This document shows positions 1,618-40,344 of a stretch of 64,000 nt of DNA, one piece after another; position 1 is the stretch's first letter; the number at the start of each line of letters is the position of its first letter. The notes beneath the pieces were generated by a model. The model saw only the letters and a list, made by a program, of their open reading frames with translations, was not told where the DNA came from and ran no database searches. The position numbers and the translations under genes were made by a program. This stretch comes from Alphaproteobacteria bacterium (lineage in GTDB: Bacteria; Pseudomonadota; Alphaproteobacteria; Elsterales; Elsteraceae): positions 62,001-126,000 of the forward strand of contig RDXE01000026.1 of the NCBI GenBank assembly GCA_004292755.1, given 5' to 3'.

Positions 1618-1646
1618 GACCAAGATCATCGCTTAAGGTTGTAGCC

Positions 1647-2765: not shown

Positions 2766-2811
2766 CCGCGGGGGTAACCCCGCCAGAACCGTCAACGGAA
2801 GTGCTGCGCGC

Positions 2812-21308: not shown

Positions 21309-21732
21309 CCTACAGGCCCTTTCATCGCGATACCCGCCGTATCAGCGGAATGACCGGCACCAAATGCCGCTGCGGCAGATGCTACAGGATGATCGACCGC
21401 GGATGAAGGTCAGAAGCCGGGCGATACCCTCATTCAGCCGCTGGTCCACCCGTCGCGCCCCTGATCCGGTCAGGTCAGGCACCGGGACTGGCCCCTTGGG
21501 CAGGTGCGCGGTCGGTCAAGGTTACCCAGTGAGGCGGCAACTCTTGCCCAGCGCGCAGCCAATTCGGTTGCTTGTTACTCACCCGCCGTCTGAGAAACCC
21601 GACCTAAGCGTATGATGTGATTTTGGGATGGACGGCTGGCACGACTCTTGTTTACCATTCTGTCGCGGGGCAACTGCTCCCACCGTCTGACCCTCAGAAG
21701 AGGGTGTCCTCTGAGAACAGGAAACGACTACC
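21309..21732. other. 424-bp gap between the CBS gene and the flagellin
   Basis: No gene is supported. The right part holds the sigma-54-like promoter (21636-21653) and a leader of about 70 bases before the flagellin start. The left part must contain the promoter of the minus-strand CBS gene; I see no clear consensus. Long 5' leaders on alphaproteobacterial flagellin mRNAs are known targets of FlbT/FlaF regulation. Confidence 0.5.
21636..21653 (+). promoter_or_regulatory. Sigma-54-like -24/-12 promoter of the flagellin gene
   Basis: CTGGCACGACTCTTGTTT matches the sigma-54 consensus TGGCACG-N4-TTGC at every position except the -12 element, where GC is GT (GG-N10-GT). Placement gives a leader of about 70 bases. 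Flagellin genes of Caulobacter and relatives are transcribed by RpoN, so the location is expected. The -12 mismatch lowers certainty. Confidence 0.6.
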
Positions 21733-22932
21733 ATGTCGGATATCAAGCTCTCTCTCTCATCGCGCCAAAACCTGTTGTCGCTGTCGTCGACTCAGGCTCT
21801 GTTGGACCGCACCTCCGGTCGCCTCAGCACCGGTCTGAAGGTTGCCACGGCGGTTGACAACGCTCCGGCGTTCTTCGCCTCGGCCGCGCTCAGCACCCGC
21901 GCTGACAACTTCTCCATCGCCCAGTCGGACATTGAGCAGTCGATCCAGTCGCTCAACAGTGCACTGTCGGGCCTGACCGCGATCACCAAGCTGGTTGAGA
22001 ACCTGAAGGGTATCTTGATCAGCCTGCAGACCGCGACGACTGAAACGGCCGCTGCCACGCTGACCGTTCAGTACAACTCGATTCTGAACCAGATTGACCA
22101 GCTGGCGAATGACTCGAGCTATCAGGGCCGCAACCTGATCAACAACGCGTCTCAAACCGTCACCATTCAGTTTGCGAACGACCCGGCTGGCAGCTCCTTC
22201 ACCATTTCCGCGCTGCGCAATGACAGTGCTGGACTGGGCCTGACCACGATCGCGACCAACCTGTTCTTCGTGTTCACCACCTCGGTTCCGGGTATCCCGG
22301 CCCGTGACTCGGTGGCCTCAATTGCGTCGGTTGCCTCGATCGCCTCGCTTGCGTCGGTCGCTGCCGTGGCTGCGCGCTTCTCCGAGCAGTCGATCGACTC
22401 TCAGAACTCGATCCAGTCGTTTGCCAGCGTCAACAGCCAAGCTGCGACGCCGACCAACACCGACACGATCCCGTCGGCAGCCAGCCGCGCCTCGGTTGCG
22501 TCTGTTGCCTCGCTGGCCAGCCGCGCCTCGATCGCAGCAGTCTCTGCGGCGCCGTCGTTCGGCTCCACCAACTCGATCGCCCCCAGCGCGTCGGCCAACT
22601 CGGTCGGCGCGATCCCGTCGGTGCCGGGTGTCACGGTGGCTGGCGTCAACATCGCGCTGATCAACTCGCGTCAGGTCACGGTCTCCAGCGCTCTGGTCAA
22701 GCTGCGCAGCGACCAAGCGACCCTCGGCTCCAACACCGCGGTGCTGAACATCCGGTTGGACTTCTCGAAGTCCTACGTGGCGGCCCTGCGCACTGGTTCC
22801 GACAAGCTCACCCTGGCCGACCTGAACGAAGAAGGTGCAAACCTGACGTCGCTTCAGACCCGGCAGCAGTTGGGCGTGGTGTCGTTGTCGATCTCGACCC
22901 AGTCCGAGCAGAGCATCCTGCGGCTGTTCTAG
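21733..22932 (+). CDS. Flagellin with serine-triplet central domain
   Basis: A 399-residue flagellin. The N-terminal D0/D1 region (residues 1-165) is typical: SSRQNLLSLSSTQALLDRTSGRLSTGLKVATAVDNAPAFF, then IEQSIQSLNSALSGLTAITKLVENLKGIL and SYQGRNLIN. The C-terminal region (about 315-399) is also typical, ending QSEQSILRLF. Between them, residues 183-299 are built of three-residue units with serine at one fixed position (see the repeat entry), in place of the usual globular variable domain. No other flagellar gene is nearby. The next gene on the opposite strand encodes a nuclease coupled to a FlmG-like glycosyltransferase, which suggests that this filament protein is glycosylated. Confidence 0.9.
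   Translation: MSDIKLSLSSRQNLLSLSSTQALLDRTSGRLSTGLKVATAVDNAPAFFASAALSTRADNFSIAQSDIEQSIQSLNSALSGLTAITKLVENLKGILISLQTATTETAAATLTVQYNSILNQIDQLANDSSYQGRNLINNASQTVTIQFANDPAGSSFTISALRNDSAGLGLTTIATNLFFVFTTSVPGIPARDSVASIASVASIASLASVAAVAARFSEQSIDSQNSIQSFASVNSQAATPTNTDTIPSAASRASVASVASLASRASIAAVSAAPSFGSTNSIAPSASANSVGAIPSVPGVTVAGVNIALINSRQVTVSSALVKLRSDQATLGSNTAVLNIRLDFSKSYVAALRTGSDKLTLADLNEEGANLTSLQTRQQLGVVSLSISTQSEQSILRLF
22306..22629 (+). repeat. Ser-x-x triplet repeat region in the flagellin
   Basis: The translated region reads as triplets: DSV ASI ASV ASI ASL ASV AAV AAR FSE QSI DSQ NSI QSF ASV NSQ, three serine-free triplets, then units with Ser in the third position such as AAS RAS VAS VAS LAS RAS and FGS TNS. 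Serine holds its phase through about 15 units, shifts once near residue 240 and holds again. The DNA is not identical between units (tcg, tca, agc serine codons), so the pattern is kept at the protein level. Confidence 0.85.
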
Positions 22933-23035: not shown

Positions 23036-23485
23036 CTAGCGGCTCCGCACCACGCATTCCGGTGGCAGCGGCGCGCGGCGCCCTGGCCCATCAACCGGTG
23101 CCCGCGCCTCTTGCTCGCGATAACGACCGCGCGACTCTGCCGGGCAATCCCGCGCCGCTCCTGCCTCCACGGCCAGCGCACCGATATCCCGCCCGCGCGC
23201 CTCGCAGCCAGCCACCATCAGCCCATTGCGCTGAACGCCGATGCGATGGCAGGTGACCACCCACCCGGCGACCACCCGCTCCAACAAGTCGCGCGCCTCG
23301 GCCCCGCCAGGATCCTTCAGCGCTGGCGCAATCAAGCCGTGCAGCCGCACGACCCGACCGTTCACCTGCAACCTGTCGCCCTCCACGGCCTGGGCGTGGC
23401 CGGTGCTGGTGTCTTGAGCCAGTGCGCCGCCGCCGGCTGCGAGCCAAACGGCCACCAACCACCCTATCCCGATCGACCCTCTCAT
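23036..23485 (-). CDS. Secreted thermonuclease-like (SNase family) protein
   Basis: The start at 23485 overlaps the upstream glycosyltransferase gene by ATGA and gives 149 residues with a signal peptide (MRGSIGIGWLVAVWLAAGGG, cleaved near ALAQ). The mature part has SNase-type elements: VVRLHGLIAP, matching RLxGIDAPE with the acidic residues lost, and GRDIGALAVEAGAARDCP, matching the family's GRDVgxwxVxxGxA. The RGRYREQEA tail fits the Y...E..A motif. Because the DAPE acid is not conserved, catalysis is doubtful. It is translationally coupled to a FlmG-like gene, but I see no functional link. Confidence 0.7.
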   Translation of the reverse strand: MRGSIGIGWLVAVWLAAGGGALAQDTSTGHAQAVEGDRLQVNGRVVRLHGLIAPALKDPGGAEARDLLERVVAGWVVTCHRIGVQRNGLMVAGCEARGRDIGALAVEAGAARDCPAESRGRYREQEARAPVDGPGRRAPLPPECVVRSR

Positions 23486-24867
23486 GGCCAAACCTCCGGT
23501 AATGGGTGTCCCGGCTGCCATGACCTCAGACCGCGGATCAGGCGGGCGACGGTGTCGTCCCATCGCTCCTCCGCCCGTTGGGTGATGACCCGGAGGGTGG
23601 GATACCAGGAGGTCCGCCCCTCCCCCTCCCAGCGCCAGCAGCCACCGAAGCGGTTCAACAACACGGTCGGTCGCCCCAAGCCACCGGCCAGGTGGCTGAC
23701 GGCGGTGTCAACCGTCACCACCAGATCCAACGCCGCCATCAGCGCAGCCGTGTCCGCAAAGTCGCGCACCGGGCGCGGCGGCGGGGGCAGCAGCGTGTCG
23801 ATCAGGTCATCGGGAGGATCGGTCTGGAGCGCGATCCAGGCGAACTGATCCAAGCCCAGCAGCGGCTGGACGTGATCGAACCGCAGGGACCGGCGCCGAT
23901 CAATCTGCATGGCCAGCGGCTGATCACTGCGTGCCATGCCATGCCAGCACAGACCCACCCGTGGTCGGCTCTCCTCTGGCAGCAGAGCCTGCCAGGCCGC
24001 CACCTCCTCTGTTGCTGCGCTCAGGTAGGCTGGCACTGGCTGAGGGTCCGGCTGGTGCAGCCGCCCTGGCAGCGACATCAGGCCGACCACCATGGCTCCC
24101 GGCGGAAGCGGTGCGTCGAACCCCTGCACGTGATCAACCCCCTCCACCCGTTGGAACAGGCGATGAAGAGGCGGCTGTGCAACCACCACCGTTGCGTCCG
24201 CCCGGGCACGCGCGGCCGCCGCGTAGCGAATGAACTGCAACCCGTCGCCAAAGCCCTGCTCGGCCACCAGTACCAACGGGCCGCGGAGTGGACTGCCATC
24301 CCAATGCGGTGGCTGCAGGCCAGTTGGATAGTGCTGAAACATGGCTGTGCGCCAGCGCGCCTCAAACGCCCGCCAGCCGTCCTGCCACCGTCCCAGCGCG
24401 AGCAGAGCCATCGCTTCGGCCAGCTCGATCTCGGCATTGGCGGGGTCCAGCCTCCGCGCGTGCGCCAGCTCAGCCAGCGCCGCGGCGGGTTCTCCACGAT
24501 CGAGCAACAGATTGCCCAGGATGTGGTGTGGTGCCGGATGGTTGGGCAGCAGCGCCAGCGCAGCGCGGGCATCGGCCTCCGCCCCGTCGGCGAGACCGGC
24601 AGCCCGGCGCAGGGTCGCCCGGTTTAACAGCGCGTAAGGGTGCTGGGGTGCCTGCGCCAGTGCGACGTCGATCAGGTGAGCGGCCTCGCTGTGGCGATTC
24701 TCCTCCAGCAGCAGCAGACCCAATAGGTTGAGTGCATCGGGCTGGGTTGGGGCTTGGGCCAGCACTGCCTGATAACACGCCGCCGCTGTGACGCGATCAC
24801 CGGATTGGTGCCCCGCGAAACCCTTCGCCAGCAAGGAGTTGATGTCGGTCCATGTGCCCACTTGCAT
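23482..24867 (-). CDS. FlmG-like TPR glycosyltransferase
   Basis: A 461-residue protein from ATG 24867. Residues 1-150 are TPR repeats, recognisable by ALNLLGLLLLEENRHSEAAHLIDVALAQAPQHP and ILGNLLLDRGEPAAALAELAHARRLDP. The C-terminal half is a GT-B-like domain with VGLCWHGM, RRRSLRFDHVQPLL and TAALMAALDLVVTVDTAVSHLAGGLGRPT. This is the layout of Caulobacter FlmG, the TPR-bearing glycosyltransferase that attaches pseudaminic acid to flagellin. The flagellin gene is about 550 bp away, reading towards it. A frame open far upstream to 26550 is not coding; it is antisense to a solid gene. Substrate sugar is unknown. Confidence 0.8.
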   Translation of the reverse strand: MQVGTWTDINSLLAKGFAGHQSGDRVTAAACYQAVLAQAPTQPDALNLLGLLLLEENRHSEAAHLIDVALAQAPQHPYALLNRATLRRAAGLADGAEADARAALALLPNHPAPHHILGNLLLDRGEPAAALAELAHARRLDPANAEIELAEAMALLALGRWQDGWRAFEARWRTAMFQHYPTGLQPPHWDGSPLRGPLVLVAEQGFGDGLQFIRYAAAARARADATVVVAQPPLHRLFQRVEGVDHVQGFDAPLPPGAMVVGLMSLPGRLHQPDPQPVPAYLSAATEEVAAWQALLPEESRPRVGLCWHGMARSDQPLAMQIDRRRSLRFDHVQPLLGLDQFAWIALQTDPPDDLIDTLLPPPPRPVRDFADTAALMAALDLVVTVDTAVSHLAGGLGRPTVLLNRFGGCWRWEGEGRTSWYPTLRVITQRAEERWDDTVARLIRGLRSWQPGHPLPEVWP

Positions 24868-24975
24868 GAGGTGAGTGTAGCGGTGCGAAGCCAAGCTTCC
24901 CAGCGCTGGTGTTGGGTGTCGACGCTGTCCCCTGCCTCTGGATAGGGTCAGCAGCACCAAACTGAGGGCGCAGTG

Positions 24976-26610
24976 ATGACCAAGCGGGCGCAAGACCCCC
25001 GATTGCAGACGGTCTCCAGCTTGTTTCGCCAGGGCGACCGCGCCGGAGCCGAGGCGGTGCTGGCGACCGTGCTGGCCGAGCAGCCTGACGATCCGCACGC
25101 CAATCACCTGCGCGGCCAGTTGGACTATGGCGATGGTGCTGTTGACACTGCGCGCGCGCGGTTCCGCCTTGCTGTCGCAGGGGCGGAGACCATTCCCTCC
25201 TACCGCAACAGCCTGGGCGTTGCCGCCCTGGCGCTGGGGGATGTGGCGGAGGCAATTGGCGCTTTTGAAGCCGCCATTGCGCTGGGCTCCCGCGATCCCC
25301 TGTCCTTTGTCAATCTGGGGCACGCCAAGCGGATTGCCGGACAGGTTGCGGAGGCGCGAGCGGTCGTCAATGCCGCGCTGACCATCCACCCCGGCCATGC
25401 GGGTGCGCTGGCGGAGTTGGCGGCGATTGAGCACCGCGGCGGCGCGTTGGTGGAGGCGGAACGCTTGTACCGCGCGGCCTTGGCGGCTGATCCCACCAAC
25501 TTGAGTGCCCTGCATCACTTGGGCGAATTGCTGATCGAACGCGACCGGTGCGAGGAAGCCGCCGACTGTTTCCGCCGCGTGCTGGCTCTGGCGCCTGCCA
25601 CGCCCGCAGCGGCGGTTGGGTTGGCGATGGCCCAGCAGGCGTTGCTGGATGTCGATGGCGCGCTGGCCACGCTGGAGGGCCTGCTGGCGCTGATCCCGGG
25701 CGACCGTGACGCGCTGTTTTTGCAGCGGGTGATCTTGTCCGGCCAGATCGCGGGCTGGCACATCCCGATGATCAACGACCATGAGCGCAACGATGCCTAT
25801 CGCGCGGCGCTTGAGGCGACGGTCACCCCCGACGACGTGGTGCTCGAGATCGGCACCGGCTCTGGCATTGTGGCGATGATGGCGGCGCGCGCCGGTGCTC
25901 GCCATGTCTATACCTGCGAGGTTTCGAAGCCCCTGGCGACAGCTGCCGTGGAGACTGTCCGCCGCAATGGCTATCACGACCGTGTCACTGTGATCCCGAA
26001 GAAATCCACCGCCCTGGTGGTGGGTGACGATCTGCCGGAGCGGGCGACAGTGTTCGTTTCGGAATTGATCAACATCGGCATGCTGGCGCCTGCCATGCTG
26101 CAGGTGTTGCGCCATGCACGGGAAGCACTGTGCACGCCCGACGCGCGCATCATCCCGGCCGCTGCGACGGTGTACGCCGCGCTGATTGAGACGCCGGAGC
26201 TGGCGCGGGTGAACCCCGTGGCGCGGATCGATGGGTTCGACATGAGCCATTTTGACCGCTTCCGCTCCCCCGGCTATACCCAGATTGATTTGGGCGCCGA
26301 CCCGCATCGCCTGTTGTGTCAGCCAGTTACGGCGCTGCAGTTCGACTTCACCCGAGATATGCCGGACGAGCATGGGCTTTCGCTGCCCCTGACGGCGACC
26401 GCCACAGGGGTGTGCCACGGGGTTGTGTTCTGGTTTGACCTCGCCATGGCCGACGGGGTGACCTACCACTCCGCCAGTCAGGCGCGCACCAATCACTGGA
26501 AGCAAGCGTTGGATTTCTGTGCCGTGCCGCTGCCCGTGACGGCCGGTCAAGCCCTGACCCTGTCGGCCCGATACGACAAAACCCGCATCTGGTTCGAGGT
26601 GACGCCATGA
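24976..26610 (+). CDS. TPR protein with PRMT-like (arginine methyltransferase) domain
   Basis: The 544-residue protein (GTG 24973 or ATG 24976) has TPR repeats in its first 230 residues (YRNSLGVAALALGDVAEAIGAFEAAIALGS; LHHLGELLIERDRCEEAADCFRRVLALAP). The second half is a methyltransferase with motif I VVLEIGTGSGIVAMMAARAGA (about residue 287), then CEVSKPLA, VFVSELINIGMLAPAML and the C-terminal TNHWKQALDFCAVPLPVTAGQ. The latter matches the HWKQ barrel element of protein arginine methyltransferases. TPR plus PRMT is the layout of PRMT9 in animals and is seen in some bacteria. It is divergent from the FlmG-like gene and coupled by ATGA to the acyltransferase. Confidence 0.75.
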   Translation: MTKRAQDPRLQTVSSLFRQGDRAGAEAVLATVLAEQPDDPHANHLRGQLDYGDGAVDTARARFRLAVAGAETIPSYRNSLGVAALALGDVAEAIGAFEAAIALGSRDPLSFVNLGHAKRIAGQVAEARAVVNAALTIHPGHAGALAELAAIEHRGGALVEAERLYRAALAADPTNLSALHHLGELLIERDRCEEAADCFRRVLALAPATPAAAVGLAMAQQALLDVDGALATLEGLLALIPGDRDALFLQRVILSGQIAGWHIPMINDHERNDAYRAALEATVTPDDVVLEIGTGSGIVAMMAARAGARHVYTCEVSKPLATAAVETVRRNGYHDRVTVIPKKSTALVVGDDLPERATVFVSELINIGMLAPAMLQVLRHAREALCTPDARIIPAAATVYAALIETPELARVNPVARIDGFDMSHFDRFRSPGYTQIDLGADPHRLLCQPVTALQFDFTRDMPDEHGLSLPLTATATGVCHGVVFWFDLAMADGVTYHSASQARTNHWKQALDFCAVPLPVTAGQALTLSARYDKTRIWFEVTP

Positions 26611-28669: not shown

Positions 28670-29278
28670 TTACCGCAGGGCAGCAAGCGGTGCGACCGTC
28701 GCAACGGGGGCGAGGCCAGCCAGAGCCTCCTCGTGCAGGCGGCGGGAGAACGCGGCACAGCCATCGGCCACCACGGTCACCTCAAAGTCCCGGACATGGG
28801 CATCACGCACAGTCGAGGCGACCCCGCCATTGGTGACAATCCCGCAGCATAACAGGTGGCGAAAGCCCGCCTTGCGCAGCAGCCATTCCAGCCGGGTCAT
28901 GTAAAACGCGCTGAAGGCGATCTTTTCCACTGCCGCATCAACCGGCCCCAACTCCTCCAGCACCTGATGGCCCCAGGACCCAGCCTGAAAATCCCCGCGC
29001 GCGAGGAATGGTCGCAGCGCCTTCAAGTGCGGGGCGATCATCGGTTCGCCATCGCGGCCGGGCACCAACGTGAAGTGAGTTGCCACCACCCAGCCCCCCG
29101 CGGCGCGCACGCGGTCAATCAGGCGGCGCTGAACGGCGATGATCGCGGCTGCATCGGGCAACACGGCCCCACCGCGCGCATAGGCTCCATCGCGGTGCAG
29201 AAAGTCGTTCTGCATGTCGCACAACAGCACAGCTGTGTTGGCATCGATCCCGGCTGCATGCATCCCTGGACTGGCCAT
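28670..29278 (-). CDS. Isochorismatase-fold protein lacking the catalytic cysteine
   Basis: A 202-residue isochorismatase-like protein: Asp21 in LLCDMQNDF, Lys119 in VEKIAFSAF, and GIVTNGGVASTVRDA at residues 146-160. In cysteine hydrolases the last motif is GxxTxxCVxxT; here the Cys position is Gly152, as in true isochorismatases and YecD-like members. Two other isochorismatase-fold proteins in this window (38156 and 40353) keep the cysteine. The gene overlaps hyuA by TAATG, so it belongs to the hydantoinase operon. Its activity is probably not a simple amidohydrolase. Confidence 0.75.
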   Translation of the reverse strand: MASPGMHAAGIDANTAVLLCDMQNDFLHRDGAYARGGAVLPDAAAIIAVQRRLIDRVRAAGGWVVATHFTLVPGRDGEPMIAPHLKALRPFLARGDFQAGSWGHQVLEELGPVDAAVEKIAFSAFYMTRLEWLLRKAGFRHLLCCGIVTNGGVASTVRDAHVRDFEVTVVADGCAAFSRRLHEEALAGLAPVATVAPLAALR

Positions 29279-31332
29279 TACGCCCTCGCGGTCATGATCA
29301 GATTGCCGAACGGGTCCACCCGCGCGGTGTGAGCCGCCTCCACCACAATGGTGGTGTCGCTTTGCTCCAGGATGGCAGGCCCCTCGACCAGAGCGCCAAC
29401 GGGCAGCGCTGCCCGGTCAAGCACGGGAACGGTGCGGTAGCTGCCTGCCACAAACAGGCGCCGCTCGCCCAGCTGTGGCGTGCGCCCTGCCACCGGCGCG
29501 GGGGCCAACACGGCGAGGTCCAGCTTTGGCCGCACCCCGATGACCGCGATGCGCAGGTTGAGCAGGCGCACCGCCAACCCCTCCAACACCCGGCCATAGG
29601 CAGTGCGATAGGCGCTGGCGAACGCCGCCTCCACCCCTGCCTGGGTGAGCGGCTGGTCCGGCTGCCACGGCAGGGGTGTCGCCACGGTGTGGGTCTGGCC
29701 GAGGTAGGACAGATCAGCCGACACCTCCACCCGCCTGCCTGCAAACGCCACACCGGCACGGTCCAGGGCGGCCTGCTTGTCAGCGATCAGGGCGGCCGTG
29801 GACGCGGACAGGGCGGCGAAATCCACCTGTCCAACCAGTCGATTGATGGTGTGCACATGGTCTTGGCGCATGTCGGCCAGCACACAGCCCAGAGCTGAGG
29901 TCACACCGGGAAAGCGCGGGACCAGGGCACCGGCCAGCCCAACCTCGGTCACCAGTGCGCCAATATGCAGCGATCCCCCACCGCCAAAGGCCAGCGCCAG
30001 GAAGCGCTTCGGGTCATGACCGCGCTCGATTGAGATCAGCCGGATGGCGCCCGCCATCCGGGCGTTCGCAACCCGCACGATTGCCGCTGCCGCTTCGGCT
30101 GGGGAGAGGCCGAGTGGCTCGCCAACATGGCGGGCGATAGCGCGCTCGGCTGCCTCCACATCCAGGCGGGTGAGTGCGCCGCCGATCGGACGCTCAGCAT
30201 TGATGCGCCCCAGCACCAGATTGGCATCGGTCACGGTTGGGCGATCATTGCCGCGGCCATAGGCAACGGGGCCGGGGTCAGAGCCAGCACTCTCCGGCCC
30301 GATCTGCAACAACCCGCCGCGATCCACCCGCGCGATCGAGCCGCCACCCGCCCCGATGGTGGTGATCTCAATCATCGGCGAGCGGACGACGAGGCCGAAA
30401 TCAATCGCAGTTTGCGGTGCCTCGGCCGCCACGCCATCGGCGATCAGCGAAACATCGAAGCTCGTACCGCCCATGTCGCAGGTGATGACGTTGGGAAAGC
30501 CTGCGGCGCGCGCTATCTCCGCACACGCGATCACCCCCGCAGCAGGACCCGACAGAGCCGTGCGCACCGGCACGGCTGAGGCGGTCGGCACTGTGGTCAC
30601 CCCGCCGTTGGACTGCACGATCAACACCTCGCCTGCGAAGCCGCTTGCACCCAGGCGCGTGGTCAATTGCGTCAAATAGCTGCCAACCGGCGGCTGCAAG
30701 TAGGCGTTCAGCGCCGTGGTCGAGGTGCGTTCAAACTCTCGAATTTCTGGCAGGATGTCGGTGGAGACGGAGACGTGGGGCGTCGGCCACACGGCCCGCA
30801 GGGCGGCAGCGGCCGCCTGCTCGTTGGCGGGATTGGCATAGGCGTTGATGAACACCAAGGCCACGGCCTCGCAACCAGCCGCCAGCAGCGTGGCCGCAGC
30901 CGCGCGCACGCCGTCCAGATCCACGGCAGTGCGGATGGTGCCATCGGCCAGTGTGCGCTCGGCGACCTCCAGGCGCAGATCGCGGGGGATGATGGGCACG
31001 AACTGACCCCACAGCCCCCAGGTGGTCGGGCGGTCCCGGCGCCGCATTTCCAGCACGTCGCGGAACCCAGCCGTGGTGATCAAGCCGGTGCGGGCACCCT
31101 TGCGCTCCAACAACGCGTTGGTACCCACCGTCGTGCCATGGACGATGGTGGCGACCCGGCCAAGATCATCCACCTCGGCGCGGATGCCCGCCAGGAAGCC
31201 CGTTGCCTGATCGCCCCGCACCGAGGGAACCTTGGCGATGCTGGCGCGACCCGTGGCCTCATCCAGGCAGAACACGTCCGTGAACGTGCCGCCGACATCC
31301 ACGCCAATCACCAGAGAGGCCTGTTTGCTCAT
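29278..31332 (-). CDS. hyuA: Hydantoinase/oxoprolinase family protein A
   Basis: The 684-residue protein has the ATP-binding ASKHA-type fold of HyuA: VIGVDVGGTFTDVFCLD at the N-terminus (about residue 8-24), VHGTTVGTNALLERKGA, CDMGGTSFDVSL in the middle and AFGGGGSLHIGALV. With HyuB it forms the ATP-dependent N-methylhydantoinase, acetone carboxylase or 5-oxoprolinase class; the exact substrate is not deducible. The order is lyase, hyuB, hyuA, isochorismatase-fold, all on the minus strand and closely spaced. Confidence 0.9.
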   Translation of the reverse strand: MSKQASLVIGVDVGGTFTDVFCLDEATGRASIAKVPSVRGDQATGFLAGIRAEVDDLGRVATIVHGTTVGTNALLERKGARTGLITTAGFRDVLEMRRRDRPTTWGLWGQFVPIIPRDLRLEVAERTLADGTIRTAVDLDGVRAAAATLLAAGCEAVALVFINAYANPANEQAAAAALRAVWPTPHVSVSTDILPEIREFERTSTTALNAYLQPPVGSYLTQLTTRLGASGFAGEVLIVQSNGGVTTVPTASAVPVRTALSGPAAGVIACAEIARAAGFPNVITCDMGGTSFDVSLIADGVAAEAPQTAIDFGLVVRSPMIEITTIGAGGGSIARVDRGGLLQIGPESAGSDPGPVAYGRGNDRPTVTDANLVLGRINAERPIGGALTRLDVEAAERAIARHVGEPLGLSPAEAAAAIVRVANARMAGAIRLISIERGHDPKRFLALAFGGGGSLHIGALVTEVGLAGALVPRFPGVTSALGCVLADMRQDHVHTINRLVGQVDFAALSASTAALIADKQAALDRAGVAFAGRRVEVSADLSYLGQTHTVATPLPWQPDQPLTQAGVEAAFASAYRTAYGRVLEGLAVRLLNLRIAVIGVRPKLDLAVLAPAPVAGRTPQLGERRLFVAGSYRTVPVLDRAALPVGALVEGPAILEQSDTTIVVEAAHTARVDPFGNLIMTARA

Positions 31333-31347
31333 ATCGTGTGCCTCCCG

Positions 31348-33018
31348 TTACTGCGCGTGGCTGACATAGCCGAGGCGCTGATCTTCGGCGCGTGCCGACG
31401 GCTCCCGCTGATCGGGGGGACCAAAGCCGCCGCCGCCCGGTGTCTCCAGCCGCACCCGGTCACCGCGATTGAGGCTTGCGCCGACCAGCTTGGAGGCCAT
31501 CGGTGGGGTTTTGACGACACCTGCGTCCGTCCAGGTGAAGCGATTGAGCGCCCCTGGCTGGCCGCCCAGCACACCGGGGGGCGCGTGGCGGGCGCGCTCG
31601 CCAAACAAGAACAAATCTGCCCGCTCGGCCAGCAGTTCGAACTCATAGATGGCTCCAAGGCCACCGCGATGCCGACCATCGCCACCCGAATCGGGCCGCA
31701 ACGCCCACTCAGTCGCCATCACTGGATAGGCCGCCTCCAGAATCTCCAGCGGCGGGATGGTCGCCATCGAGATCGGCGCATTGCCATGGTTCAGGCCATC
31801 GCCCTTGGGATGCCCGCCATGGCCACCGCCGAAAAAGCTGAACATCACAAAGCGCGATCCGTCCGCCCGATGGCCCGCCAGCGACAGCGCGTTGATCGTG
31901 CCATAGGCGCAGGCAGTGGCGCGCTCCGGTGCAAAGCGCGCCATGGCGACGAACACGGCATCGATGACGCGCAAGATCGTCTCGGTATAGCCGCCCACCG
32001 GTTTTGGCGCCCGGACCGACAGAAAGCTGGTCTCCGGGATCAGGATCTCGACCGGGTCCAGCACCCCGGCATTGGCAGGCACATCGGGGAACAAATGCTT
32101 CAGGGCGACATAGCACGCTGCAATCGCCGTGGACCGCGCAATGTTTACCGGACCCAGGCACGCAGCATCAGTGCCTGTGAAATCCAGGGTCAAGCGATCA
32201 CCAGCCACTGTGACCGCCAAGCGGATGGTCAATGGCTGGTCTTGGATGCCGTCATTATCGAGGTAGTCAGCCACATGCTCGGTGCCGTCGGGCAGCGCCT
32301 CAATGCTGTCACGCATCAAAGTGGCGGCGCGCAAGCGCAAACGATCCATCGCCCGGCGCACCAGAGCGGGGCCATAGTGATCGAGCAGGTCATCCAGACG
32401 GCGCACCCCAAGGTCGAGGGCGTTCAACTGACCGTTCAAGTCCCCGTAGAGCGAGCCAGGCAGCCGTGAGTTGGCCTGCAGAATGCGGATAATATCGCCA
32501 TTCAACACACCTGCTGCGATCAGCCGCACCGGCGGGATTACCATGCCTTCCTGAAAGCATTCTGTCGCGGCGGGGTTATAGTTGCCCGGCACCGCGCCGC
32601 CCACGTCATGCCAGTGGCCAACACTGGCGAGCCAGCAAAACAAGGCACCATCGCGGAAATAGGGCCGCACCAACTTGAAGTCGGAGAGATGGGTGCCGCC
32701 GTCATAAGGATCATTGAAGATGTGAACATCACCCGGTTGCGGCGTGGTGCCATCGCGCTGATGGGTATCAATCACCGCCCGCACGGCGAATGCCATCGCG
32801 CCGACAAACACCGGCAAACCAGACTTGCCCTGCACCAGTGTGTCGCCGGTGCGGGCATCGTAGAGACCGTGGGAGGCATCATGCGCCTCGGCAATGATTG
32901 GATTGAAGGCGGAACGGAATAGGGTTGCGTCCATCTCGTCGGCAATCTGCTCCAGCCGCCCTTGCAGCACAGCCAGCGTGACGGGATCGAGATCGTCCAA
33001 TGGTGCGACTGGGGTCAT
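31348..33018 (-). CDS. hyuB: Hydantoinase/oxoprolinase family protein B
   Basis: A 556-residue HyuB: DPVTLAVLQGRLEQIADEMDATLFRSAFNPIIAEAHDASHGLYD at the start, NDPYDGGTHLSDFKLVRP near residue 100, and a glycine-rich end GGGFGPPDQR. It carries the metal site in this class and works with HyuA, whose gene lies 15 bases downstream. The start overlaps the lyase gene by ATGA. Confidence 0.92.
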   Translation of the reverse strand: MTPVAPLDDLDPVTLAVLQGRLEQIADEMDATLFRSAFNPIIAEAHDASHGLYDARTGDTLVQGKSGLPVFVGAMAFAVRAVIDTHQRDGTTPQPGDVHIFNDPYDGGTHLSDFKLVRPYFRDGALFCWLASVGHWHDVGGAVPGNYNPAATECFQEGMVIPPVRLIAAGVLNGDIIRILQANSRLPGSLYGDLNGQLNALDLGVRRLDDLLDHYGPALVRRAMDRLRLRAATLMRDSIEALPDGTEHVADYLDNDGIQDQPLTIRLAVTVAGDRLTLDFTGTDAACLGPVNIARSTAIAACYVALKHLFPDVPANAGVLDPVEILIPETSFLSVRAPKPVGGYTETILRVIDAVFVAMARFAPERATACAYGTINALSLAGHRADGSRFVMFSFFGGGHGGHPKGDGLNHGNAPISMATIPPLEILEAAYPVMATEWALRPDSGGDGRHRGGLGAIYEFELLAERADLFLFGERARHAPPGVLGGQPGALNRFTWTDAGVVKTPPMASKLVGASLNRGDRVRLETPGGGGFGPPDQREPSARAEDQRLGYVSHAQ

Positions 33019-33878
33019 GCCTGTTCTCCCGCGTAGCGCTTGCCGCGCTCCAATAGCTCTGGCGTGCCCAGCGCCGCTGCAAGGCCTTGAAAATCCAGCA
33101 TACGGTCCCGGAACGGCTCGGTCGTGCCGTGCTCCGCCAGAGAGGCGAAATAGGCCCGCGCGGTGAAGGCGACGGCGCGGGCAAAGCCACCGGGAAAGAT
33201 CGCGAGCCGATAGCCCATGGCCGCTAGATCAGCGACTGGCGTCATTGGCGTGGAGCCTCCCTCCACCATGTTTGCCAAGAGCGGCACGCGCGTGGCAAAG
33301 CGCTCCGCCACTCGGCCCAACTCTGCCTTGGTGCGAGGGGCTTCGACGAACAAGATGTCAGCACCAGCCTCGACATAGCGCTCCGCCCGCTCAAGCGCTG
33401 CCTCAACGCCCTCCACGGCGATGGCATCGGTGCGCGCGATCACCAGCATCTGGTCACGCGAATCCAGGGCTGCCTTCAACTTGCCAACCATCTCCGAGGT
33501 GGGGATCACCTGTTTGCCCTGCAGATGCCCGCAGCGTTTGGGCATCACCTGATCTTCCAATTGAATGGCAGCGGCGCCCGCGCGCTCGTACTGGCGCACA
33601 GTGCGCTGGGTGTTGAGCGCATTTCCAAACCCCGTATCCCCATCGGCGATCACTGGCAGACGCACCCGGTCGGTGATCGCCGCCAGCACGCCCAGCACAT
33701 CATCAACGCTGTACAGCCCTATGTCGCCCTGGCCGAGGCGGCTGTAGGAAATCGATGCCCCAGACAGGTAGAGAGCGGGAAAGCCTGCGGCTTCGGCAAA
33801 TACTGCACCCAGCGCGTCATATACCCCTGGGACAATCAAGCACCCCGGTTCGCGCCACCGATCCCGTAAACTCACCAT
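33015..33878 (-). CDS. PEP mutase/isocitrate lyase superfamily enzyme
   Basis: A 287-residue TIM barrel from ATG 33878. The family signatures are GVYDALGAVFAEAAGFPALYLSGA, VIADGDTGFGN (metal-binding Asp residues) and KRCGH (residues 113-117, the catalytic cysteine loop). Methylisocitrate lyases, carboxy-PEP mutases and oxaloacetate hydrolases share these. The length and sequence point to the 2-methylisocitrate lyase/PEP-mutase-like branch. It is first in an operon with hyuB, hyuA and the isochorismatase-fold gene. Substrate unknown. Confidence 0.85.
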   Translation of the reverse strand: MVSLRDRWREPGCLIVPGVYDALGAVFAEAAGFPALYLSGASISYSRLGQGDIGLYSVDDVLGVLAAITDRVRLPVIADGDTGFGNALNTQRTVRQYERAGAAAIQLEDQVMPKRCGHLQGKQVIPTSEMVGKLKAALDSRDQMLVIARTDAIAVEGVEAALERAERYVEAGADILFVEAPRTKAELGRVAERFATRVPLLANMVEGGSTPMTPVADLAAMGYRLAIFPGGFARAVAFTARAYFASLAEHGTTEPFRDRMLDFQGLAAALGTPELLERGKRYAGEQA

Positions 33879-33991
33879 CGTTCTGCCCCCCGGCAGGTCC
33901 TGTGCGCCGTGCCCGTCGCGGACCGGCAGGCACCTTAGGGGGGTTGAGCAGTGGACGAAAGAGACCGCAAGCCGAAGGAAACGCATAGCCG

Positions 33992-34453
33992 ATGTCGACC
34001 TTGAACACGCGCGTTCCGCCGCCCGTGATCGTTGTCCTGGTTGGCCTGATCATGGTGGGCCTGACCGAGGTGGGACCCGACCTCCAGCTCGATCGAACCT
34101 TGAGGTGGCTGCTGGCGACCGTCATCGCCGCGCTCGGCCTTGCCGTAATGCTGGTGGCGGCGTGGTCGTTTCGCCAAGCCGGCACCACGCTCAACCCCCG
34201 CGCAGTGGAGCGGACCAGTGCCCTGGTCACCACCGGCGCATTCACCATCAGTCGCAATCCCATGTATCTCGGCATGCTGGCCTTGACTGTGGCGCTGGCG
34301 TTGGTGCTGGGAGGGATCGCAGCGTTCTTGGGTCCGGTCCTGTTCTGGGCCTACATCACCCGCTTCCAGATCCTGCCAGAGGAACTGGTCCTGGCCCGCC
34401 GCTTTGGCGCCGAGTTCGACGCATATCGCGAGCGGGTGCGCCGCTGGTTGTAG
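33992..34453 (+). CDS. Isoprenylcysteine methyltransferase-like membrane protein
   Basis: A 153-residue integral membrane methyltransferase: three or four hydrophobic segments and the family motif TGAFTISRNPMYLGML (about residues 84-99), then ILPEELVLARRFGAEFDAYRERVRRWL at the C-terminus. This is the ICMT/PEMT fold in which the SAM site lies near the second motif. Bacterial members often methylate phospholipids or small lipid-like molecules. It is divergent from the lyase operon, with only 113 bp between the starts. Substrate unknown. Confidence 0.8.
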   Translation: MSTLNTRVPPPVIVVLVGLIMVGLTEVGPDLQLDRTLRWLLATVIAALGLAVMLVAAWSFRQAGTTLNPRAVERTSALVTTGAFTISRNPMYLGMLALTVALALVLGGIAAFLGPVLFWAYITRFQILPEELVLARRFGAEFDAYRERVRRWL

Positions 34454-34917
34454 AACAGACAAAGGATGAGCCACAGACCTTCGCCCGGCGCCTCTGTCGG
34501 CGCCCACCCTGGGGGCGGGGTCGTCTCCAATCACAGGGCGCACCCTGTGGGTCACCCGCGGCCGACCGAAGGTGGATCGCGTCGCCTGCGCCTGGCTGGT
34601 CCGGCGCTGTGTTGATCCCTCCGCGGTGTTGTTGTTCACAGCGCCGGAGCGGCGCACGCGGTCACCTCCAGCTGGGTCCAGGACGGAAGCGGGACAGCCC
34701 GGTTGGTCCGCGCTCGGCGCGGCCAAATCCCGCTCAGCCTGTTCATCTCGTGCGCATTAGCCGCTGTTTCCAGCGCGCTGCCCAAGAAAGCGGCAGGCGC
34801 ACACAGTGCGCAGTGACCCACAGCCTTAATCAGCCCCAGTCGCAAGGCGTGGCACACGCGTTGCTGATCAACCTGCGGGCGCCCATCGGAGGCGCTGGTT
34901 GCTGCAAGGAAACTGCC
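34454..34917. other. 464-bp gap holding a chrB-like remnant
   Basis: No intact gene is present. From about 34536 a frame with the highly characteristic ChrB segment can be read for about 40 codons and then degrades. The remaining sequence up to the binding-protein start at 34918 shows nothing I can support; the promoter of the downstream operon is presumably here. Confidence 0.5.
34536..34660 (+). pseudogene. Remnant of a chromate-resistance protein (ChrB) domain
   Basis: The translated frame reads TLWVTRGRPKVDRVACAW followed by LVRRCVDPSAVLLFT, which corresponds to the conserved ChrB segment TWVTRxRPKxDRIACPWLIRRFIDPxAxFLY. There is no start codon with ribosome site upstream in the frame and no continuation of the domain (the expected H and C-rich end is absent). 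I read it as a decayed gene fragment. Confidence 0.6.
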
Positions 34918-36033
34918 ATGAGCCGTGGTCCCCTCTCGCGCCGTACGCTGTTGACCTCTGTTGCTGCCTCAGGCGTTGCGGCCTCGGGCTTGGCTCAGAC
35001 AGTCGGTACGGCGTTGGCACAAACCAACATCACGGTTGGTATTCTCTATGTCGGCCCGCGCGATGATTTTGGCTACAACCAAGCCCATGCAGTTGGCGCT
35101 GCGGAATTGAAGAAGGTCCCCGGCGTCAAAGTCGTGGAAGAGGAGAATGTCCCGGAGACCATCGCCGTTCAGCGCTCGATGGAATCGATGATCAATCTGG
35201 ATGGCGCACGGCTGATCCTGGCGACATCGTTTGGCTATTTCGATCCGCACATGCTGGCAATGGCGGCGAAGTACCCGCGGGTGGAATTCCGCCACGCAGT
35301 CGGCCTGTGGGATCAGGCGAAGCATCCGCAAAATGCCGGATCGTATTTCGGCTATCTGGACCAAGCGCACTATGTCAACGGCATTGCCGCTGGTCTGGTC
35401 AGCAAGACCAAAAAGATCGGCTTCATCGCTGCCAAGCCGATCCCCTCGGTGCTGCGGAACATCAATGCCGTCTTGTTGGGCGCACGCAAGAACATGCCAG
35501 ACGCCACGGTCCAGGTGGTGTTCACGGGCGACTGGTCGCTGCCAGTGCGCGAAGCGGAAGCCACCAACGCGCTGATTGCCGCCGGTTGTGATGTTATCAC
35601 CTGCCACGTCGACAGCCCGAAGGTGGTGGTGGAAACCGCAGAGCGCCGCGGCGTGATGACCCTCGGCCACAATGCCTCCCAAGCGAGCCTGGCACCGCGC
35701 GGCTTTGTTACCGGCGCGGAGTACAAGTGGGAGACGATCTACAAAGGCTTTGCTGACAATCTGGCGAAGAGCCAGAAGCTGCCGAACTGGGTGCGCGGCG
35801 GCTACGACCTGGACTATGTCCGCAACACTGCCTACGGCGCGGCGGCCACCGATGGCGTGCGCCGGGCCTGTGACACGGCGATTGCGGAGTTGAAGCGCGG
35901 CGCACCGATCTTCGTCGGCCCGATCAAGGACAATCGTGGCAACACGGTGATCCCAGCGACGCTCGACAACTACGCACCGCCGTTGGAAGGCATTAACTAC
36001 TTGGTTGAGGGCGTGATCGGCTCGATCACCTAA
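34918..36033 (+). CDS. BMP/PnrA-family ABC transporter substrate-binding protein
   Basis: A 371-residue lipoprotein-like BMP family binding protein from ATG 34918 (AAGGA upstream), with a twin-arginine signal (SRRTLLTSVAASGVAASG, ending AQT). Recognisable elements are GILYVGPRDDFGYNQAHAVGA, ERIAVQRSMESMINLDGARLILATSFGYFDP and KIGFIAAKPIPSVLRNINAVLLGARK. BMP proteins bind nucleosides, purines or similar ring compounds. It heads an operon with two permeases, an ATPase and two cysteine hydrolases (34918-41039), implying uptake of a nitrogen-rich ureide-like compound. Confidence 0.88.
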   Translation: MSRGPLSRRTLLTSVAASGVAASGLAQTVGTALAQTNITVGILYVGPRDDFGYNQAHAVGAAELKKVPGVKVVEEENVPETIAVQRSMESMINLDGARLILATSFGYFDPHMLAMAAKYPRVEFRHAVGLWDQAKHPQNAGSYFGYLDQAHYVNGIAAGLVSKTKKIGFIAAKPIPSVLRNINAVLLGARKNMPDATVQVVFTGDWSLPVREAEATNALIAAGCDVITCHVDSPKVVVETAERRGVMTLGHNASQASLAPRGFVTGAEYKWETIYKGFADNLAKSQKLPNWVRGGYDLDYVRNTAYGAAATDGVRRACDTAIAELKRGAPIFVGPIKDNRGNTVIPATLDNYAPPLEGINYLVEGVIGSIT

Positions 36034-36057
36034 GCCCTGCGGTCTGGAACCAAAGCC

Positions 36058-37152
36058 ATGGCAGTCGCCGCGGACCTCACCCACCGCCTGCGCCAAGGGG
36101 CGGAGTACACGTTGATCCCACTGGGTGCGCTGGTGGTGTCGGCGGCGCTGTTCTCGGTGTTTCTGCTGGGGCTTGGCAAATCGCCCCAGCAGTTCTTCGA
36201 GTTGATGTGGCGCGGCGGCTTCGGCACGGCGTTCTCCTGGCAGAACACCCTGCAGCGGGCCGCCCCCTTGGTGTTGACCGCACTGTGTGTTGCGATCCCA
36301 GCCCGCATTGGGCTGGTGATCATTGGCGGCGAGGGAGCCTTGGTGCTGGGTGGCTTCGCTGCTGCTGCCATTGCCATTCCCATGATCGGGCCAGTTGCTG
36401 CGGGCAGTCTTCCCGTAGCGCTGATGCTGGGGGTGATGGCGCTGGCAGCCGCCTTGGCAGGGGCATTGTGGATTGGCTTTGCGGGGTGGCTGCGCCATGC
36501 CCGGGGCGTCAATGAAACCATCTCCTCCCTGCTGCTGACCTACATCGCGATTGCGATCCTGTACTTCTTTGTCGAGGGGGCACTGCGCGATCCAGGCTCG
36601 CTCAACAAACCGTCGACACCGCCAATTGGGGCAGGCGCGATGCTGCAGCCAATCCCCGGAACGGACATCCATTGGGGCCTCGCGGCGGGGGCGCTGCTGG
36701 CGGTGCTGCTGCACCTGCTGATGACCCGCACCACCTTCGGCTTTGCCATGCGCGTGACTGGCGGAAACCCGCGCGCCGCACGCGCACAGGGCCTGCCGGT
36801 CGGTGGTTTGCTGGTGGCTGCGACGATGATCGCCGGGGCCTCTGCCGGGCTGGCCGGGTTCTTCGAAGTGGCAGCCGTGCACGGCAACGCCAATGCCTCC
36901 CTCGTGGCTGGCTATGGCTTCACGGGGATTCTGGTGTCGTTCCTGGCACGGCACAACCCCATCGCGATCCTGCCCGTTGCCATTCTATTCGGCGGCATTG
37001 CAGCGGCGGGGGGCTTGATTCAGCGCCGGATGGGCCTGCCCGATGCAACGGTGCTGCTGCTGCAGGGGGTGATCTTCGTCGTCCTGCTCGCCTCTGAAAC
37101 CCTCTATGGCCGCATTGCGTGGCTGCAACCCAAACGCAGCGGAGCCCCGTGA
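36058..37152 (+). CDS. ABC transporter permease 1 (BMP-type, YufP-like)
   Basis: A 364-residue permease with eight or more hydrophobic helices. Family features are PLVLTALCVAIPARIGLVIIGGEGALVLGGFAAA, a first-permease motif, and ARGVNETISSLLLTYIAIAIL. It partners the second permease (gene at 37178). Spacing of 25 bp after the binding-protein gene is consistent with one operon. Confidence 0.88.
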   Translation: MAVAADLTHRLRQGAEYTLIPLGALVVSAALFSVFLLGLGKSPQQFFELMWRGGFGTAFSWQNTLQRAAPLVLTALCVAIPARIGLVIIGGEGALVLGGFAAAAIAIPMIGPVAAGSLPVALMLGVMALAAALAGALWIGFAGWLRHARGVNETISSLLLTYIAIAILYFFVEGALRDPGSLNKPSTPPIGAGAMLQPIPGTDIHWGLAAGALLAVLLHLLMTRTTFGFAMRVTGGNPRAARAQGLPVGGLLVAATMIAGASAGLAGFFEVAAVHGNANASLVAGYGFTGILVSFLARHNPIAILPVAILFGGIAAAGGLIQRRMGLPDATVLLLQGVIFVVLLASETLYGRIAWLQPKRSGAP

Positions 37153-37177
37153 TGCCCCAGCGTAGCGGAGCCACCCG

Positions 37178-38092
37178 ATGGACGCGCTGATCACCGTGCT
37201 GATGGCCATGGTGGGTGGGGCGATCCGCGTCTCAACCCCCTTCCTGTTCGTATCCTTGGGCGAGTGCCTGACGGAGAAGTCGGGCCGGATCAATTTGGGG
37301 CTGGAAGGCACGCTCGTATTGGGGGCCATGGTTGGTTACATGGCGTCCTTTGAGACGGGGAACCCCTGGGCGGGAGTGATTGCCGCGGGCCTTGCAGGCT
37401 TTGTGATGGGGGCGCTGCATGGCGGACTGTGCAGCCTGCAACGGGTCAACGACGTGGCTGTGGGCATCGCGCTGATGACCTTCGGCACCGGCCTCGCCTT
37501 CTTCTTCGGCAAACCCTACATCCAGCCGTCCGCCCCGCGTCTGCCATCGATACCCCTGGCGGATTGGACGGGGATTCCGCATCTGGCCGATGCCTTGCGG
37601 ATCAACCCGTTGTTTTTTCTGGGCATCGCGCTGGCATTGCTGATGGCCTGGGCGTTTCGCACCACCCGCATCGGCCTGATTGTGCGCACCACGGGTGACA
37701 GCGCCGCGGCCGCGCGCGCGATGGGGGTGTCGGTGATCGGCGTGCGCGTGCTGGCCACCGCCGTCGGCGGCATCTTCGCGGGAATTGGGGGATGTTTCCT
37801 GTCGCTCTACTATCCCGGCAGTTGGAACGAAGCCCTGTCCTCCGGCCAGGGCTTGATGGCCGTGGCGCTGGTAATTTTCGCCCGCTGGGACCCCGTGCGC
37901 TGCTTTCTGGCCGCCTTGCTGTTTGGCGCCGCCGGTGCCCTTGGACCAGCGCTGCAGTCTGTTGGCGTCACCCAGGGCTACTACTTCTTCAACGCTGCCC
38001 CTTACATCCTGACCCTGCTGATCATGATCGCGTCCGCCAAGGGGCGGCTCGCGATGCGATCAATGCCGGGGGAGTTGACGATTTCGCGCTGA
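37178..38092 (+). CDS. ABC transporter permease 2 (BMP-type, YufQ-like)
   Basis: A 304-residue permease, shorter than its partner as is usual for the YufQ subunit. It contains ESGRINLGLEGTLVLGAM-like TEKSGRINLGLEGTL near residue 32 and several transmembrane helices. The start ATG 37178 is placed 26 bp after the preceding gene. It belongs to the same operon and pairs with the first permease. Confidence 0.88.
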   Translation: MDALITVLMAMVGGAIRVSTPFLFVSLGECLTEKSGRINLGLEGTLVLGAMVGYMASFETGNPWAGVIAAGLAGFVMGALHGGLCSLQRVNDVAVGIALMTFGTGLAFFFGKPYIQPSAPRLPSIPLADWTGIPHLADALRINPLFFLGIALALLMAWAFRTTRIGLIVRTTGDSAAAARAMGVSVIGVRVLATAVGGIFAGIGGCFLSLYYPGSWNEALSSGQGLMAVALVIFARWDPVRCFLAALLFGAAGALGPALQSVGVTQGYYFFNAAPYILTLLIMIASAKGRLAMRSMPGELTISR

Positions 38093-38155
38093 TGGCTCGC
38101 GCTCGTGAACTCAATGACGCCTGTTCTGTCTTGGTGGGTTAACCCAGAGGCTACC

Positions 38156-38833
38156 ATGCCGATCATCGACGCAACCCCCTACCCGTTTCCGTTCGACGGC
38201 CCGTTAAGCCCGGTCGACAGCGCCTTGATCGTGATCGACATGCAGACCGATTTCTGCGGCATCGGCGGATATGTCGACGCCATGGGCTACGACCTCTCGC
38301 TCACCCGCGCACCGATCGAGCCGATTGCACGGGTGCTGGCAGCCCTGCGGCCCCTTGGCTATTCCATCATCCACACCCGCGAGGGGCACCGGCCAGACTT
38401 GTCTGACTTGCCCGCCAACAAGCGCTGGCGGAGCCAACGGATCGGTGCGGGCATTGGCGATGTTGGCCCCTGTGGTCGCATTCTGGTGCGCGGGGAGCCT
38501 GGGTGGGAAATCATTCCCGAGTTGGCGCCCCTGTCGGGCGAGGTGATCATCGACAAGCCGGGCAAGGGATCCTTCTACGCCACCGATCTGGAGCTGATCT
38601 TGCGCAGCCGCGGCATCCGACGGCTGTTGCTGGCGGGCATCACCACGGATGTCTGCGTCCACACCACCATGCGTGAAGCCAATGACCGTGGCTTCGAATG
38701 CCTGCTGCTGACTGACTGCTGCGGCGCGACCGACCGCGGCAATCACGAGGCCGCGATCAAGATGGTCACCATGCAAGGCGGGGTGTTTGGGGCCGTCGCC
38801 TCCAGTGACCAGTTGCTGGCGGCCCTCGGCTGA
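38156..38833 (+). CDS. biuH: Biuret amidohydrolase-like cysteine hydrolase (BiuH type)
   Basis: A 225-residue isochorismatase-fold hydrolase from ATG 38156. The triad is Asp28 (IDMQTDF), Lys134 ([10 protein letters not shown]) and Cys167 (ITTDVCV). Characteristic stretches [25 protein letters not shown] and [17 protein letters not shown] agree closely with the characterised biuret hydrolase of Rhizobium as I remember it, with a constant offset of eight residues. BiuH splits biuret into allophanate and ammonia. Placed between the second permease and the ATPase of a BMP-type transporter, it probably acts on the imported compound. Confidence 0.85.
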
Positions 38834-40344
38834 TGCGCGCGCCAACTCTCGCCACCGAGGGCATGACGAAGGAATTCGGGGCCTTCACGGCATTGTCCGA
38901 CGTGTCAATCACTGTGCCAGCAGGCAGCTTTCACGCGCTGCTGGGGGAAAATGGCGCAGGCAAGTCGACATTGGTGAAGTGCATCATGGGCTTCCATGCG
39001 CCAACCCGCGGGCGGGTGCTGGTGGATGGGGCACCGGTGACCATCCGCAACCCGCGTGAGGCGCGCGCGCTGGGCATCGGCATGGTGTATCAGCACTTCA
39101 CGCTCGTGCCTTCCCTCACCGGTGCGGAAAACATGGTGATCGCGCGGGCTGACTGCCCCGCTGTGATCGACTGGCGCAAGGAACGCCAGGATCTGGCCGA
39201 GTTCCTGAACCGCATGCCGTTCCAGGTGCCGCTTGACCGGCCTGTGGCCGAACTCGCAGCTGGGGAAAAGCAAAAGCTGGAAATCCTGAAGCTGTTGTAC
39301 CTGAACCAGAGGTTCTTGATCCTGGATGAGCCAACCTCGGTGCTGACACCCGACGAGGCCGACGAAATCCTGGGTCTGTTGCGCCAGATGACCCGCGATG
39401 GCGCGATCAGCGTGCTGATGATCACCCACAAGTTCCGCGAGGTGACCGCCTTTGCCGATGCTGTCACGGTGCTGCGGCGCGGGCGCCTGACTGGCAGTGG
39501 AGCCGTGGGCGACCTGTCCACTGATCAAATGGCGCGACTGATGATCGGCGACAGTGAGGTGCGAGCCCCCGCGGCCCGCCAGCCCCGGGCAGCAGGGCCA
39601 ACGGTGCTGGAGCTGGCGGCGGTGTTCGCGGAGGACGAAGCGGGGCAGACGGTGGTCAACTCCCTCAACCTCAAGGTTCACGAGGGGGAGGTGCTGGGCA
39701 TCGCTGGCGTGTCCGGCAATGGCCAATCCGCGCTGGTGGAGGTGCTGGCGGGCCAGCGACCGATGGTCGATGGCCGCATCACCATCCATGGTAAGCCGTT
39801 TGAGCCAACCCGGCGCGATTTCGCCCGGTTTAAGGTTTATGGTCTGCCCGAGGAGCCGCTGAAGAACGCCACTGCGCCGCGGATGACCGTGGCGGAAAAC
39901 ATTGCCTTTCGCAGCTTTGATCGCCCGCCGATGGCACGGCTGAACTGGTGGCTGCGCCCTGGCCCGATGCGCGCCAAAGCGCGGGAGTTGATCCAGCGCT
40001 ACAACGTCAAGACCCCCTCCACCGAAGCGCCGATTGACACATTGTCGGGCGGCAACGTGCAGCGCGCAGTGCTGGCGCGCGAGCTGTCGGACGATGTGGC
40101 AGTGCTGATCGTCGCCAATCCCTGCTTTGGGCTGGATTTCGCCTCCGCGGCCGATATCCGCGCCCAGATACTGGAAGCGCGCAATCGCGGTGCAGCCGTG
40201 CTGCTGATCTCGGAAGACTTGGATGAGATTCTGGACCTCTCAGACCGCGTCGCCGTGATGTCGGAAGGACGGATCACCTTCACGGCACCGATCGGCGAGA
40301 CGGATCGGGCCACCATCGGCCATGCCATGGCCGGGCATCATTAG
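38833..40344 (+). CDS. BMP-type ABC transporter ATPase (two domains, YufO-like)
   Basis: A 503-residue ATPase with two nucleotide-binding domains. The first has Walker [10 protein letters not shown] (about residue 38), the signature [13 protein letters not shown] and Walker [13 protein letters not shown]. The second has the degenerate [16 protein letters not shown], in which the Walker lysine is replaced, and a signature [14 protein letters not shown] with DFNPC-like NPCFGLD. This pattern is normal in the PnrA/BMP family. The ATG overlaps the biuH stop (TGATG), so the operon is tightly coupled. Confidence 0.9.

Follow-up and report, generated by a model that had tools for sequence, protein, structure and literature searches.

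Flagellin Gene and Its Surroundings

The 64 kb stretch of DNA analyzed here (the window) carries, at 21733..22932 on the + strand, a gene for a 399 aa protein that matches both terminal flagellin families of Pfam, Flagellin_N (E 5e-10, 40 bits, compared with a curated cut-off of 26.6) and Flagellin_C (E 8e-6, 26.5 bits, compared with a curated cut-off of 23), as well as solved flagellins of Caulobacter crescentus (8uxk, 9cem, 8uxj, 8uxn, and 9cef), the D0/D1 core of which aligns to both of its ends. On these grounds, the open reading frame encodes a real flagellin. The N-terminal D0/D1 half spans residues 1–175 (21733..22257, +), of which residues 14–175 align to 14–174 of 8uxk, and the C-terminal D1/D0 half spans residues 316–399 (22678..22929, +), which align to 187–270 of 8uxj. 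Between them, at the position of D2/D3, lies an insert of about 140 residues (residues ~176–315; 22258..22677, +). Both source organisms are alphaproteobacterial and carry multiple flagellin paralogues; the Caulobacter proteins, however, are 270–273 aa long and have no outer domain at this place.

The insert has no convincing relative in searches of Pfam, NCBIfam, and the PDB, and no peptidase family of Pfam was found in it. A search of viral contigs gave no match, and a plasmid search gave no record covering 80% of the query, the matches listed being pieces at the flagellin ends. Upstream of the gene, 96 nt before its ATG, lies a sigma-54 promoter-like site, TGGCACGACTCTTGTT (21637..21652, +), which is near consensus, departing from TGGCAC[GA]N4TTGC[AT] at a single position. 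The + strand of the window holds just two sites of this kind, and no comparable site was found within 300 nt of the flagellin homologues, such that a good site is present only at the window gene and carries no weight in the interpretation below. Further along, the window contains hydantoinase/oxoprolinase A and B genes together with a PEP-mutase-like gene (29278–33986), followed by an ABC transporter set (34105–40344).

Serine Periodicity of the Insert

The first-pass annotation had described residues 183–299 (22279–22629) as the variable segment of a flagellin, in which serine is held at one phase of a three-residue unit. Both the coordinates and the assignment hold: the terminal flagellin families and the solved flagellins match on either side of the segment and, since the Caulobacter flagellins that lack an outer domain align to residues 14–175 and 316–399, the triplet segment lies inside the insert at the D2/D3 position. 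Of its 29 serines, 26 fall on period-3 positions. In the first run (residues 192–236; 22306..22440, +), serine occupies 13 of the 15 positions 193+3n between residues 193 and 235; a linker (residues 237–246; 22441..22470, +) then moves the phase by one residue, as had been proposed, and in the second run (residues 247–298; 22471..22626, +) serine occupies 13 of the 17 positions 248+3n between residues 248 and 296. Serine is thus found at 26 of 32 phase positions, and the earlier count of about 36 units was slightly high, although the repeat itself stands.

This periodicity is far from what composition would give. Serine has a Fourier power at period 3 of 3.31 over residues 190–240 and of 2.39 over residues 241–299, compared with a shuffle mean of ~0.2, and in both stretches it exceeds all 5000 composition-preserving shuffles (p = 0.0002, which is the floor of this test). 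Likewise, Ser-Ser spacings of 3, 6, 9, and 12 residues occur 20, 17, 17, and 15 times, respectively (69 in all), and spacings of 2, 4, 5, 7, 8, 10, or 11 residues in only 12 cases. The serines are encoded by a mixture of codons (18 TCG, 5 AGC, 3 TCT, 2 TCC, and 1 TCA in residues 183–299). The position after the next (+2) is dominated by Ala, while the +1 position holds Val and Ile irregularly mixed with Arg, Gln, and Thr; there is no six-residue alternation in the window protein, successive +1 residues being of the same class in nine cases and of different classes in nine. Overall, the insert contains 20% V/I/L, 7% charged residues, and no Lys, and a charge-hydropathy comparison places this composition on the ordered side.

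The two runs can be aligned with each other, 59 or 62 being the best offsets. Tested against triplet-preserving shuffles, their similarity stands out for the window protein (p 0.006) and for L003, its closest homologue (0.000), and is not significant in the other three homologues from the genus. The two runs are therefore likely, although not certain, to be the product of an internal duplication.

Conservation within the Genus and Family

The same layout is seen in five flagellins from two species of the genus. The second flagellin of the same genome, on G000:C2, is 65% identical to the window protein, and several more are found in the second species. (A third Flagellin_N match in the same genome, L033 at G000:C1:95264–95662, lies just over the cut-off, at 26.8 bits, in a frame of 1029 codons, and is perhaps a hook-associated protein.) The five copies are 56–79% identical, and the insert is 117–118 aa long in every one of them; its serine positions are kept while the other two phases change. 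Across the 32 phase columns of the five-flagellin alignment, 79% of residues are Ser, the remainder being mostly Ala or Thr, and 20 of the 32 columns are invariant, compared with 5 of 32 for the +1 columns (V, I, R, A, T, and Q) and 10 of 32 for the +2 columns (mostly Ala).

At 14 of the 19 columns with Ser in all five flagellins, the codon differs between copies, and a switch between TCN and AGY is seen at two columns. Because synonymous codons vary at invariant serine columns, selection acts on the serine itself, which bears out the initial proposal that the pattern is maintained at the protein level. It had also been anticipated that close homologues would share the phase, and this is the case only in part: members of the same genus keep it, but two other species of the family with matching flagellins (G005 and G007, from one other genus) carry different inserts of similar length with no serine phase. 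A profile search (A2) of 385 genomes of the class matched the source genome alone.

Predicted Structure

With the five-member alignment, AlphaFold2 yields pLDDT values of 23–32 over the window insert, in a model that is weak as a whole (mean 46). The model of a distant relative described below (L126), built from 17 sequences, is better: D0/D1 reach pLDDT 80–94 over most of their length, and a nonrepeat helix within the insert reaches 85–90. Most of the L126 repeat nevertheless remains at 28–45, with no secondary structure, and only its short first part (177–221) is helical, at a pLDDT of about 47–72. In neither protein does AlphaFold2 predict strands over the serine repeats (repeat pLDDT 23–45), and the Pfam hexapeptide model for left-handed beta-helices does not match the insert even at E 10. 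The extended fiber, beta-solenoid, or PPII-like segment suggested in the first-pass annotation, although a reasonable idea, is thus not borne out, and an ordinary globule fares no better, with the caveat that low pLDDT obtained with few sequences is no demonstration of an extended form. The insert is an outer-domain variant with a three-residue unit; the models give it no confident fold and favor neither fiber, solenoid, nor globule.

Neighboring Genes and Possible Glycosylation

Located 0.55 kb downstream of the flagellin gene, on the opposite strand, is a gene (23482..24867, –) for a 461 aa protein with matches to Pfam TPR families and to Glyco_transf_9. GT9 belongs to the GT-B superfamily. 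In Caulobacter, the flagellin O-glycosyltransferase FlmG, which combines TPR and GT-B domains, glycosylates the flagellins (PMC7591256). The window gene shares with FlmG its domain order, with N-terminal TPRs and a C-terminal glycosyltransferase (GT9-like in the window gene), and its product is shorter than FlmG (596 aa); we consider it a candidate flagellin O-glycosyltransferase. A homologue is found in a syntenic position beside the orthologous flagellin of the sister species, as is a homologue of the next gene (24973..26610, +), which encodes a 545 aa fusion of TPRs with a methyltransferase carrying a PRMT C-terminal subdomain (Pfam PRMT_C, PrmA, and TPR) and is possibly a flagellin-modifying methyltransferase.

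At the paralogue locus L116 (G000:C2:216501–236000), three TPR-GT41 genes flank the flagellin, each lying in a frame of >1000 codons, and two of them are 54 and 72% identical to the GT41 domain beside the sister species' flagellin. The source genome holds 15 GT41 relatives in all. In the sister species, further TPR-GT41 genes surround the second flagellin. TPR-glycosyltransferase genes adjoin four of the five flagellin loci of the genus, and the filament of the window flagellin is, from this gene context, likely to be glycosylated. We note, however, that of 44 related flagellin loci with sufficient flanking sequence, 32 have such a neighbor as well, nearly all of them without the repeat, and that L043, a triplet flagellin, has none within 6 kb, such that the link between the repeat and glycosylation is not specific. 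The triplet serines may themselves be glycosylated, and it is plausible that, as proposed, their spacing makes them a regular series of modification sites.

Recurrence of Serine Arrays in Other Lineages

A genome-wide scan with follow-up searches identified three relatives in a separate Rhodospirillales lineage, L125 (587 aa; 526–2289 of its locus), L126 (664 aa; 1501–3495 of its locus), and L043 (337 aa). The three share with the window protein the insertion site, a Ser at every third residue, the same proportions of Ser, Ala, and V/I/L (~25% Ser, 25–31% Ala, and 17–21% V/I/L), and almost no charge (3–7% charged residues). Their inserts, of ~84, ~318, and ~396 aa (roughly 320–400 residues in L125 and L126), differ in being built from the hexapeptide S-V-A-S-Q-x rather than from plain triplets, with a true six-residue period (autocorrelation at 6, 12, 18, 24, and 30), and their D0/D1 regions are not sister to that of the window protein. 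In addition, an Opitutales flagellin carries a short version of the serine array. A fragment of L126 gave no match in 299 genomes of the phylum, but that search had no positive control and is uninformative.

On a D0/D1 tree of 110 flagellins, the triplet flagellins fall in three places, and the branches with good support require no fewer than three changes of label, which implies that this type of insert arose or spread repeatedly. Since flagellin variable regions are thought to have been gained by horizontal transfer (PMC7018530), the recurrence may reflect either convergence or transfer of the insert. The similarity between the window insert and those of L125, L126, and L043 seemed strong against whole-insert triplet shuffles, but only a few of the 30 insert comparisons stand out when shuffling is confined to each phase run; we do not claim common descent of these inserts, as their similarity goes no further than a shared grammar. 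We also discarded a DNA pattern for five successive S-x-A units, which matched 78 of 385 genomes of the class but whose reversed control turned up equally often or more often in many of these genomes; eight of the most repeat-like places were fetched, of which five had a readable frame, and none was a flagellin.

Relation to Known Flagellins

The first-pass annotation went too far in stating that the D2/D3 domains of known flagellins are either globular or missing. Giant flagellins of the Oceanospirillales, in which a repeat-bearing insert with internal duplication likewise takes the place of D2/D3, have been published (PMC6248924). These differ in that their tandem Domain-Extension (DE) regions, compared here by description, are large and the proteins exceed 800–1000 aa, whereas the present protein has a three-residue unit and 399 aa. 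Similarly, proteolytic flagellins carry a foreign segment in the hypervariable region (PMC5595980), but that segment is a metallopeptidase, and the window insert has no peptidase match. Searches of the open-license literature turned up no account of flagellin inserts made of Ser triplets, and from their sequences these inserts appear to be an undescribed variant of the flagellin outer domain.

Interpretation of the Triplet Insert

Taking these observations together, our preferred but still tentative reading, to which we give slightly less than an even chance, is that the Ser-[V/I/R/Q]-Ala repeat, which stands in place of the surface-exposed outer domain, projects as a nonglobular element and carries O-glycosylated serines. 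The triplet segment would extend from the filament as a regularly repeating, nonglobular element, and the thousands of subunits would present dense rows of serines. TPR-type glycosyltransferases (GT9-like at the window locus, GT41-like at the paralogue) would O-glycosylate many of the phased serines in the cytoplasm, before the flagellin is exported, and the glycosylated serines would give the filament a glycan coat. The composition of the insert speaks against this reading, as it differs from what is typical of mucin-like or disordered carriers of glycans. That same composition, on the ordered side and without Lys, would suit a compact repeat fold, be it a beta-solenoid or another fold with a three- or six-residue unit, in which Ser and Ala would be structural, Val and Ile would face inward, and glycosylation would be beside the point. 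Two of every three positions are indeed small and the third is often Val or Ile, and the S-V-A-S-Q-x hexapeptide of the distant relatives resembles the left-handed beta-helix consensus, which is [LIV]-[GAED]-x2-[STAV]-x. Against such a fold stand the lack of predicted strands, of a hexapeptide match, of any PDB relative of the insert, and of a six-residue alternation in the window protein, and we consider it unlikely on balance.

The lack of a confident fold and the scarcity of charges, with no Lys, would also be expected of a flexible, uncharged segment rich in Ser, Ala, and Val that serves in adhesion or in contacts between filaments and is modified little or not at all, but a flexible linker offers no obvious reason for a strict serine phase, and the composition again lies on the ordered side, which makes this explanation quite improbable. 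Slippage on a 9 bp unit, leaving low-complexity filler that does no harm in a dispensable outer domain, draws on imperfect short tandem arrays of 9 and 18 bp in the DNA at 22308–22361. We disfavor it as very improbable, however, since serine is retained across the diverged copies through synonymous and even TCN/AGY changes while the other phases vary, and since the constant insert length contrasts with the drift expected of neutral sequence. A more far-reaching version of the preferred reading, in which the inserts form a novel class of flagellin outer domain, with a repeat fold of its own based on three or six residues and with a ladder of glycosylated serines running the length of the filament, present in Alphaproteobacteria and Verrucomicrobiota through independent evolution or spread, seems to us doubtful.

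Flagellin outer domains carry antigenicity, phage contacts, and glycans. They rank with the most diverse regions known in proteins (PMC7018530). A recurrent, minimal three-residue grammar at this position provides a simple system for studying the way in which the surface of a filament is built from a repeat fold or a glycan ladder. In the long relatives, with repeats of up to ~400 residues, cryo-EM would be able to show such a structure.
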